This document shows positions 3,499-5,848 of a stretch of 64,000 nt of DNA, one piece after another. The position numbers and the translations under genes are program-made. Under the pieces are notes generated by a model. The model did no database searches and was not told where the DNA came from. It saw only the letters and a program-made list of their open reading frames with translations. Source of the stretch: Acidicapsa acidisoli (GTDB lineage: Bacteria > Acidobacteriota > Terriglobia > Terriglobales > Acidobacteriaceae); contig NZ_JAGSYI010000003.1 of assembly GCF_025685625.1 (NCBI RefSeq), positions 310,001 to 374,000 of the forward strand. Reading direction: 5' to 3'. Each line of letters begins with the position of its first letter. The first letter of the stretch is position 1.

Positions 3499-3606
3499 TC
3501 TGCGGGCGGTACTTGGGCCTGCTGGTGCCACATGCCAGTTTGATATTATTGAGAAACAGGATCTGTACATTTTAAAGTGCAGTGGTACTATATAAGGTAC
3601 GGCATC

Positions 3607-3960
3607 GTGGATGGTTCAAGGCAACAGAAGATTCCTCTTATTTTCTTCCGTTCACCGTCTGGGGTTGAGCCGGTGAGAGAGTGGTTGCTGGGGCTGCCTG
3701 AAGAGGAGCGTCAGTCAATCGGGCGAGACCTGCTGCGGGCGCAATGGCAGTGGCCAGTTGGAATGCCGCTATGCCGTCCGATGGGGAGAGGGTTGTGGGA
3801 GATTCGCACGGATATGCCGACGAAGCGAACTGCGCGAGTACTGATCTGTCCGCATCGCGATCACCTGGTCGCATTGCATGGATTCATTAAGAAGACGCGG
3901 ACCACGCCGGAGGATGATTTGGAATTGGCGCGCAGGCGTCAGAAGGAGTTAGGGCAATGA
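3607..3960 (+). CDS. HigB/RelE-type toxin (phage Gp49-like family)
   Basis: The product matches the Gp49-like RelE superfamily of mRNA interferases, which cut mRNA on the ribosome: IPLIFFRSPSGVEPVREWLLGL, then GRDLLRAQWQWPVGMPLCRPMGRGLWEIRTDM and ARVLICPHRDHLVALHGFIKKTRTTP. The order of sheet strands and the GLWEIR and LHGFIKKT blocks are typical. I favour the GTG at 3607, which has AAGG nine bases upstream and gives 117 residues; a GTG at 3577 in the same frame is possible. The stop overlaps the antitoxin start by four bases (ATGA), so the two are translationally coupled, toxin first. Confidence 0.8.
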   Translation: MDGSRQQKIPLIFFRSPSGVEPVREWLLGLPEEERQSIGRDLLRAQWQWPVGMPLCRPMGRGLWEIRTDMPTKRTARVLICPHRDHLVALHGFIKKTRTTPEDDLELARRRQKELGQ

Positions 3961-4235
3961 GCGATCAACATATGGGTTCGAGCATTGATGATTTCATGAA
4001 GGAAGAAGGCATCTTTGAGGAGGCGCAGGCGCAGGCTGTGAAGGAGGTTGTTGCGTGGCAGCTTGCCGAAGCTATGCGGGTGCAGAAGATCTCCAAGAAC
4101 AGGATGGCGACTTTGCTTAAGACGAGCAGGTCGCAGGTGGATCGGCTGCTTGATCCGACGAGTGATATTACGCTTGCGAGCCTGCAGCGGGCCGCTGTGA
4201 TGGTTGGGCGGCGGGTTTCGATTGAGCTTGTTTAG
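3957..4235 (+). CDS. HigA-type XRE antitoxin of the Gp49-like toxin
   Basis: The 92-residue protein has a helix-turn-helix in its C-terminal half: WQLAEAMRVQKISKNRMATLLKTSRSQVDRLLDP, then ITLASLQRAAVMVGRRVSIELV. The N-terminal portion (SSIDDFMKEEGIFEEAQAQA) is acidic and helical, as expected for toxin contact. It overlaps the toxin gene by four bases. By family precedent it should neutralise the toxin and repress the shared promoter. A family A hairpin follows about 30 bases after the stop. Confidence 0.82.
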   Translation: MSDQHMGSSIDDFMKEEGIFEEAQAQAVKEVVAWQLAEAMRVQKISKNRMATLLKTSRSQVDRLLDPTSDITLASLQRAAVMVGRRVSIELV

Positions 4236-4324: not shown

Positions 4325-5671
4325 TTACTCTGCACAATGGTTCCTGCCGCTAGGCCAGAATTTCGACTGCAAGATAGGATCGACTGGGTAGTCAGACCAC
4401 CAAACTTCTTTAAGGCCTGGAAGTTGTCTACGAATGTTTGCCAGTGCCGAAGATTGGTCGCATAGGTGCGGACCAATTACAAGCGTTCCGCCTTTGATCT
4501 GAAGGCTAGAACTCAGGTAGAAGGTTTCCCCATCGAAAAAGAACGTGCAATTCTCGAAGTGGCCACTAATGATTACAGTATTGTCCAGAAGTATCTTCCC
4601 GCCCTTCAAGGTGCCATTGCCGACACAACTATATTGAATGTAGACAGCTGAAGGCAGGCCGATTGGGAGAAGAGCGTCGTCGAAATTTGAGTTCATTACG
4701 ATATTCTGCGCAAACACCTTTGGGTACTCATTCATGCCAACCGGCGGAGCGAAGGCCGGTTGTCCACCAGCAAAAACAGCCTCCTGAATGGGGCCACCGA
4801 TAACCGGGGAAGGGTATGGGGGAAGCATCCCATTCTGGTCGGCGATGTGCCTTAGGTGTTCGGCCAATTCTTTAAGCTGCGCGGCTGAGAGCGTGTCCAG
4901 GCGATGCTGTGTCTTAGCACGTGCGTACGCACGAAGTGGAGGTTCATCCCTGAAGAGAACATCGTCGGGATGAGCGATCCTATCGGAGACAGCCTTTTCG
5001 GCATTAGGTGGGGCTGAGATGAGATAAAGTAAATCATCGTTGTGGTAGTCCTCAACTGACGAGATACTGGCACGAGGTCTGGCAGAAGTGCCTTCTGCTG
5101 GCGCCCTTGAGTACGAGATGACGCGCTTGGTACTTCTCATAGTACCGTCAACATCGTAACCCGCGAATATTAGGTCTAAATCAGTAGGTGCGTGGGACGC
5201 GATGCCTTCGCTTGCGATCCGTGCTGCGTTGAGATTATCGAGATAGTATCGAATGTATTCCGTCAAGTCACTTACCTTTTTATCAAACGTCAGGACAGAC
5301 TCAGACTTTGACAACTCCTTGGAGTAGGCAAAAATCAACTGAGAGGTTGCGACAAACATGGGATACAGAGCATTCTCTTTATTACCAACGTTAGGCCCTG
5401 GGTCGGTAACCAGACCGGCAAGCGAAACCATTGTCTTTTTGTCAAGTCGAAAGAGTTTTTGCTCCAGGTCTTCATAGTCGCCATTGGGTTTAGTTCCTCT
5501 GCTATCGGTGATAAGCACCATTGCATTCTTGTTAGCGAGGAGAAGGTTAATCGTCCCATGCGAGGGTAGACTGGGCGCCGTTTGCGGTAAGGCATGCGTC
5601 GCTGCAAGCAAGCCAGACAGAACGGTGACAAGGAATGGCTTAACTTTGGCCCAAGTCTGAACAGCCTTCAT
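4325..5671 (-). CDS. Predicted secreted proteasome-beta-like Ntn hydrolase with C-terminal extension
   Basis: The start at 5671 gives 448 residues; the longer frame upstream translates a dispersed repeat and is rejected. Residues 1-29 form a signal peptide (KPFLVTVLSGLLAATHA). After SHG, Thr40 begins a proteasome-beta-like fold. Counting Thr40 as position 1 places D56 at 17, R58 at 19, K72 at 33 and G86 at 47, exactly the conserved catalytic and pocket positions of proteasome beta subunits (TDSR, EQKLF, LAGL). Later DLIFAGYDVDG resembles the central strand pair. The last 200 residues are not recognised. Export is inferred from the leader; activity requires cleavage before Thr40. No neighbouring gene explains the substrate. 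Confidence 0.7.
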   Translation of the reverse strand: MKAVQTWAKVKPFLVTVLSGLLAATHALPQTAPSLPSHGTINLLLANKNAMVLITDSRGTKPNGDYEDLEQKLFRLDKKTMVSLAGLVTDPGPNVGNKENALYPMFVATSQLIFAYSKELSKSESVLTFDKKVSDLTEYIRYYLDNLNAARIASEGIASHAPTDLDLIFAGYDVDGTMRSTKRVISYSRAPAEGTSARPRASISSVEDYHNDDLLYLISAPPNAEKAVSDRIAHPDDVLFRDEPPLRAYARAKTQHRLDTLSAAQLKELAEHLRHIADQNGMLPPYPSPVIGGPIQEAVFAGGQPAFAPPVGMNEYPKVFAQNIVMNSNFDDALLPIGLPSAVYIQYSCVGNGTLKGGKILLDNTVIISGHFENCTFFFDGETFYLSSSLQIKGGTLVIGPHLCDQSSALANIRRQLPGLKEVWWSDYPVDPILQSKFWPSGRNHCAE

Positions 5672-5738
5672 CGGGATTCCTCCGGCGCTCGTTTTAAGAA
5701 ATGTTAGCACCCGCCAAGACAAGCGCAGGAACAACTGC

Positions 5739-5784
5739 AACGGCAACAACAGATCCTTCGCTGCGCTCAGGATGACAAGTCGTG
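5739..5784. repeat. Dispersed repeat, family D copy 1
   Basis: The segment around CTGCGCTCAGGATGACAAG recurs near 26757-26782 as TTTGCTCAGGATGACAAGC after a similar TTCG. Its reverse translation gives the string VILSAAKDL, a frequent artefact in acidobacterial gene calls. It lies in the leader region upstream of the Ntn hydrolase gene. Confidence 0.6.
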
Positions 5785-5805
5785 GGGTGGCGCGGAAATT
5801 TGTGA

Positions 5806-5848
5806 GTCCCACCCTTCCCGCAAAAGGCGCGGTAAGGATGGGGCACCC
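5806..5848. repeat. Dispersed repeat, family C copy 1
   Basis: GTCCCACCCTT and GGATGGGGCACCC flank a GC-rich centre. The same ends flank a different centre at 31121-31160. GGTG/CACC complementarity makes it an imperfect palindrome. It lies between the Ntn hydrolase and acs. Confidence 0.65.

Follow-up and report, generated by a model that had tools for sequence, protein, structure and literature searches.

A proteasome-like Ntn hydrolase with a predicted export signal in Acidicapsa acidisoli

Can a proteasome-type hydrolase be built to work outside the cytoplasm? The question is raised by a gene on the minus strand (4325..5671, 448 codons plus stop) of the window, the 64,000-nucleotide stretch of the Acidicapsa acidisoli genome analysed here, whose product, P0001, combines the residue spacing of proteasome beta subunits with a hydrophobic N-terminus. 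To our knowledge, characterised proteasome-like enzymes have been treated as cytoplasmic, and the combination of ring and unfoldase as central to what they do. The limits of the gene follow from its translation and from relatives that share its length and layout. A ribosome binding site (GGAGGA, 5678..5683, minus strand) lies 6 bases before the ATG, and since the gene has this site of its own the ATG was taken as the start of P0001. Upstream of this ATG the frame stays open as far as a GTG (window 5672-5812, minus strand); a VILSAAKDL stretch within this extension resembles a dispersed repeat read as protein.

The initial annotation, made from the letters of the window, had placed P0001 in the proteasome-beta register, and this proved correct beyond chance, as judged by shuffling and by conservation in relatives. 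Thr40 is preceded by Gly39 and, counted as residue 1, puts Asp56 at 17, Arg58 at 19, Lys72 at 33 and Gly86 at 47; the GYD block reported with it is also present (Gly171-Tyr172-Asp173). Within the 124,929 residues of the six-frame translation of the window, the P0001 gene holds the sole instance of the pattern [TS]-D17-R19-K33-G47, and none of 200,000 shuffles of P0001 gave Gly-Thr at 20-60 together with the four register residues. As a single sequence P0001 reached 16.6 bits against the Pfam Proteasome family (residues 39-90; cut-off 22.4), had weak matches far below cut-off in NCBIfam and found nothing significant in the PDB (1pma_B, E 0.79). P0001 alone thus falls below the Pfam cut-off; proof of the register comes from the residues that are invariant in its relatives.

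Single-sequence searches of the genome_contigs, viral_contigs, plasmids and phages collections returned no relative, and a search of 297 genomes of the phylum returned only the genome of origin. Among 15 genomes of the genus, one other (G297) carried a full-length relative with 31% identity, and a 13-row profile run on the same sample still gave 2 of the 15; two further genus matches, L003 (a frame with stops) and L004, were judged spurious. With profiles, 5 of 396 phylum genomes were matched at E≤0.1, three of them weakly, and G384 was gained; L009, L010 and L011 (E 0.013-0.077) are not among the relatives used. A further match, the frame L007, lies antisense to a gene resembling secretion ATPases and was judged spurious. 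Profile searches of family genomes gave 7 of 300, two already known. Two further tallies cannot be taken as numbers of exported enzymes: that for an order sample (23 of 298) includes eight places matching only the C-terminal domain, and that for a phylum sample (22 of 297) includes ordinary HslV or proteasome genes, five places overlapping Pfam hits and L091 and L096 having the sequence of HslV. In the plasmid collection neither L030 nor L028, used as queries, had a match.

An alignment of eight rows, with relatives at 20-31% identity, has invariant columns only at M1, G39, T40, D56, S57, K72, G86 and G292, so that Thr40, Asp56 and Lys72, the residues singled out for an orthologue comparison, are kept in 8/8 rows. 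With 13 rows D56, K72, G86 and G292 remain invariant and G39, T40, S57 and R58 nearly so. Across 21 mature sequences, 12-31% identical to P0001, Asp17 (Asp56, 5504..5506), Lys33 (Lys72, 5456..5458), Gly47 (Gly86, the oxyanion hole, 5414..5416) and the later Gly are invariant (21/21), and position 1 (Thr40, the putative catalytic Thr1, 5552..5554; all minus strand) carries Thr in 19 sequences and Ser in the other two (L034, L084). The retention of Thr1/Ser1, Asp17, Lys33 and Gly47 at such low identity suggests selection for catalysis. The proteasome-beta/HslV spacing, described at first as exact, holds for P0001 but not as a general rule, since the loop before the Lys differs in length: by direct count the residue is Lys34 in L002 and Lys35 in L008, and L008 also has Met at the Arg19 position. 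L032, a leader-bearing relative whose Thr-Asp distance is off by one, was left out of alignments and counts and speaks against a fully fixed register. Three partial frames with Thr1 and Asp17 in register (L031, L037, L044) were also left out.

With a limit of E 1, seven of eight members matched Pfam Proteasome, the best of them at 9e-5; L028, L030, L032 and L034 matched no Pfam family within that limit. Against the PDB, a profile of eight rows found proteasome beta subunits (9rla_I, E 7.3e-7; 1pma_B, E 1.1e-5; best 60 of 76 matches), and one of 21 rows found 6td5_H (E 1.7e-7) and, lower down, the BPH structure 5ovu_A (E 3.8e-4; best 60 of 199). In these two sets of best 60 matches there were only proteasome subunits and the one BPH. 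An AlphaFold model of mature P0001 from 21 rows had a pLDDT of 73.2 and a pTM of 0.70. Its strands and helices follow the order of a beta subunit, with one additional helix between H3 and H4; residues 277-317 are poorly predicted, and the C-terminal part is rich in beta structure. A first fold from two rows (pLDDT 39.5) was set aside. Foldseek of the model against the PDB gave 555 matches at E≤0.001, all 50 of those listed being 20S proteasome entries, with an E of 8.2e-9 to a proteasome chain for this predicted structure. The fit is partial: in the listed 50, target TM was 0.51-0.68, query TM 0.31-0.37 and rmsd 5.4-13.7. The structure comparison that the initial annotation had called for thus places the predicted fold with the proteasome.

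From the PDB profile, AlphaFold and Foldseek, the proteasome-like Ntn domain was delimited to residues 40-308 (mature 1-269; 4748..5554, minus strand). According to the secondary structure of the model it contains an insertion with the extra helix between H3 and H4 (residues 234-262, 4886..4972, minus strand), and in the alignments a VIGGP stretch (residues 290-294, 4790..4804, minus strand) lies opposite the Ser169-Gly-Gly stretch of beta subunits. The main text of PMC8665760 reports H3/H4 insertions of this kind in PMI-2 to PMI-6 and also describes phage members of the proteasome-like family. A viral origin of P0001 was rejected; Foldseek on BFVD matched two proteins at E≤0.001, one from a Gordonia phage and one unnamed. 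It might still be argued from the weak single-sequence scores that the register is a coincidence and P0001 something else altogether, but this is contradicted by the invariant residues, the profile matches to beta subunits, the fold match and the shuffles, and it is considered extremely improbable. Membership of P0001 among the proteasome-like proteins is close to certain.

Whether P0001 could free its own Thr1 is a separate matter. In the 20S proteasome Lys33, Asp17 and Gly47 perform self-cleavage as well as catalysis, and D166A blocks self-cleavage in the archaeal particle, as stated in the text of Huber et al. (PMC4792962). Equivalents of Asp166 and Ser169, proposed at the outset as residues to look for, were not matched in P0001: in the profile alignment with the Thermoplasma acidophilum beta subunit (1pma_B) they stand opposite an Arg-type and a Val consensus, in a segment scoring 3.6 bits only, and an ungapped count from the GG pair puts Ser288 and Ile291 of P0001 in their places. 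The Ser-Gly motif was used to pick the Ser129 column; this column, chosen by eye, holds P, S, S, G, A and E in the MAFFT rows. The HslV sequences inspected also lack the Asp-x-x-Ser-Gly-Gly stretch. The suggestion of a self-cleaved Thr1 is supported, as a prediction, by the conserved Gly39-Thr40 pair and active-site residues; with no match to Asp166 or Ser169 it is uncertain, and self-cleavage before Thr40 is best called plausible but challenged by the missing relay. The absence of these two residues would also suit an enzymatically dead binding protein comparable to proteasome alpha subunits, but the persistence of Thr1/Ser1, Asp17, Lys33 and Gly47 through 21 rows at 12-31% identity makes such a protein quite improbable.

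The leader reported ahead of Thr40 agrees with our own hydrophobicity scoring, which predicts a leader at residues 1-27 (5591..5671, minus strand) with a basic start and a hydrophobic core at 13-23. A candidate signal peptidase site, between THA and LPQ, was chosen by the -3,-1 rule. Between this site and Thr40 lies a putative propeptide (residues 28-39, 5555..5590, minus strand) ending with Gly39, which is invariant in 8/8 rows. All leader calls are Kyte-Doolittle scores of our own, with starts and cleavage sites chosen by reading. Among the 23 members scored, a hydrophobic core ends ahead of the nucleophile in 17, and these leader-bearing proteins come from several genera of Acidobacteriota. 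The mean score is at least 2.0 in 16 of the 17 (1.80 in L086) and in 0/6 of the other members, the best of which reaches 1.95 inside the mature part; as a control, 3 of 34 long frames of the window, P0001 being among the 34, reach 2.0. Four of the 17 leaders (L008, L015, L034, L087) are without a basic residue before the core. With its proteasome-type core behind an apparent export signal, P0001 probably works outside the cytoplasm, and its export is likely on these sequence grounds.

The same start could be an uncleaved membrane anchor, or the hydrophobic propeptide of a cytoplasmic enzyme, with no release outside. This would agree with leader calls drawn from hydrophobicity scoring and with members such as L081 and L098, whose extended starts have no leader and which both carry Gly before the nucleophile, or L079, L083, L084 and L097, in which Met stands directly before the nucleophile in cytoplasmic style. 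It is held to be unlikely, however, given the A-x-A-like sites behind the hydrophobic cores in the 17 members.

The residue before the nucleophile in the 17 is Gly in 13 and Ala in four. In the latter (L041, L077, L078, L086) an A-x-A directly abuts Thr1, so signal peptidase could expose Thr1 by itself. The N-terminus of L037 (RA followed by TS) resembles this type. P0001 may instead be an exported, proteasome-like protein whose propeptide is removed by another protease, with signal peptidase alone exposing Thr1 in some sisters. Both the A-x-A sites and the missing Asp166/Ser129 relay, with Asp166 and Ser169 unmatched, point this way; yet Gly, the residue after which beta subunits are cut, precedes the nucleophile in 13/17 leader-bearing members, and removal by another protease is regarded as doubtful, if the least improbable of the alternatives.

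The last 200 residues had been treated as one part of P0001. This did not hold: the Ntn domain ends within them and is followed by a linker of poor model quality and a separate domain of ~107 residues. The latter, a beta-rich C-terminal domain (residues 342-448, 4328..4648, minus strand), was delimited by alignment A8, profile matches and the model. It aligns with stand-alone frames of ~88-112 residues (L035, L036, L038, L039, L040, L042) and with parts of the longer L043 and L045, which have hydrophobic segments, and the shared core reads LDxxxFxxCxF; since these eight relatives were recruited by the profile, the alignment is not independent. L038 matched Pentapeptide_4 at E 0.021 (15.3 bits, below the cut-off of 38) and P0001 had no pentapeptide match in Pfam; a pentapeptide-repeat protein was rejected, as no match exceeded the model cut-off. 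No Pfam family exceeded cut-off in the six that were scanned of the eight relatives, and the PDB held no significant relative of the domain (best E 0.65). With L036 as query the plasmid collection gave two distant matches, both from Granulicella tundricola. A stand-alone copy of the domain was searched for in the genome of origin and none was found.

Seven full-length members carry this domain (P0001, L002, L008, L014, L015, L016 and L017), all within one taxonomic family. A tree was built from 28 rows, five of them HslV and 23 members; L083 and L097, left out of alignment A7, were included, and L029, L080 and L085 were not used. Six of the seven grouped in it with support of 90/88 and all seven with 50/78. 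The type with Met before the nucleophile forms one group (94/93), and leader-bearing rows without the C-terminal domain fall in three places, the branching order being uncertain because of long branches. HslV rows form their own group (100/100), separate from the members. HslV shares its fold family with P0001, and the 13-row profile picks up HslV genes (G083, E 1.9e-7), but the genome of origin encodes a separate HslV.

The closest described setting for P0001 is the proteasome-like family of Fuchs, Alva and Lupas (2021, PMC8665760), the main text of which gives the triad of Thr1/Ser1, Asp17 and Lys33 and the Gly47 oxyanion hole for the whole family. P0001 shares these residues and, as predicted, the beta fold; its relation in sequence is seen by profile (E 7.3e-7 to PDB beta subunits), and extra C-terminal domains are known there in other groups. 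It differs by its leader, its putative propeptide and its probable export, propeptides being stated in that main text only for proteasome beta and HslV. Among the 22 groups named for the family, those called PMI (proteasome homologs with multiple insertions) are perhaps the nearest to P0001, judged by the H3/H4 insertion, the one feature used for this placement. With 20S beta subunits it has in common the catalytic triad, the oxyanion Gly, the Gly before Thr1 and the predicted fold, but it lacks a match to Asp166 and Ser169 and has an extra insertion, a C-terminal domain and a leader. Exported Ntn hydrolases exist in other families: penicillin acylase and gamma-glutamyltranspeptidase are exported and their N-terminal nucleophile is then exposed. 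Neither family is that of P0001 or appeared among the listed PDB profile matches. Connectase and Anbu, proteasome-like proteins without closed barrels, are set beside P0001 by their description and are not described as exported in the main text of PMC8665760; since connectase acts as a ligase and is monomeric, P0001 could also have an activity other than proteolysis.

Among the papers listed by a literature search, which reached neither supplements nor most subscription papers, there was no exported or periplasmic bacterial proteasome-like enzyme. The main text of PMC8665760 has nothing on export, signal peptides, periplasm, secretion, extracellular location, membrane or Acidobacteriota; PMC5666114 contains none of five export-related words, and PMC13022661 does not mention periplasm or secreted. 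In two Acidobacteriota papers the phrase "Secreted proteasome" stands only in the reference list, in the title of Coluccia and Besaury 2023, where our guess is that secreted proteome was meant. The claim of a novel extracytoplasmic Ntn enzyme stands in part: leader and proteasome-beta-type fold speak for it, but P0001 is no one-off and its family has already been described. It probably belongs to an exported branch of that family, absent from the main text of Fuchs et al.

Taken together, these data are explained best, at somewhat better than even confidence, by P0001 being an exported, self-maturing proteasome-like Ntn hydrolase. After transfer over the inner membrane by the Sec machinery, signal peptidase would remove ~27 residues, leaving a propeptide of ~12 residues that ends with Gly39. 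The folded Ntn domain would then cut its own Gly39-Thr40 bond, Lys72 serving as base, Asp56 positioning Lys72 and Gly86 forming the oxyanion hole, and so expose Thr1. Needing neither ATP nor an unfoldase, mature P0001 may attack amide or peptide bonds, either in the periplasm or extracellularly; its targets may be peptides, proteins in an unfolded state or a single dedicated substrate. A closed proteasome barrel is unlikely, given the H3/H4 insertion and the extra domain at the C-terminus, and this domain probably binds a partner or surface. For Acidobacteriota as a whole, the chances seem evenly balanced that there is an exported branch of proteasome-type Thr hydrolases, free of unfoldase and barrel, in which Thr1 is exposed by either of two routes: directly by signal peptidase at A-x-A before Thr, or by removal of the signal peptide followed by a self-cut, without the Asp166/Ser129 relay, of a short propeptide ending with Gly before Thr. 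One clade, including P0001, would have gained the beta-rich C-terminal domain, which may choose the target. If such a branch exists, the fold can also function by itself and without ATP in a second compartment; members of the branch would be simple systems for the study of Thr1 exposure, whether by self-cleavage without Asp166 or by signal peptidase, and may constitute a new class of peptidases, amidases or ligases, periplasmic or secreted, in a common bacterial phylum.

The P0001 gene looks solitary. Its same-strand upstream neighbour is presumably an acetyl-CoA-synthetase-like gene, and two overlapping plus-strand frames at 3577-4235, facing the P0001 gene, resemble a toxin-antitoxin pair. 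No gene for an alpha subunit or an unfoldase adjoins it among the frames of the window; alpha-like matches in the genome of origin were only HslV, the P0001 gene and one spurious frame, and a search there for a second P0001 copy found none. The G+C content of the gene is 50.3% (52.6% at third positions), lower than that of the window (58.7%) and of six neighbouring frames (54.8-62.4%), which may point to gene transfer. This low value together with presence in 2/15 genus genomes suggests transfer or frequent loss.

A different arrangement was observed at L084, where two frames lie on the minus strand (L084:1489-2376 and L084:2501-3196). The leaderless relative encoded there, with Ser after Met, lies ~120 bases downstream of an ATPase frame on the same strand, which we take to be ClpC-like. 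Since no AAA+ partner was found for the new homologs described in the main text of Fuchs et al. (PMC8665760), this pairing may deserve attention.
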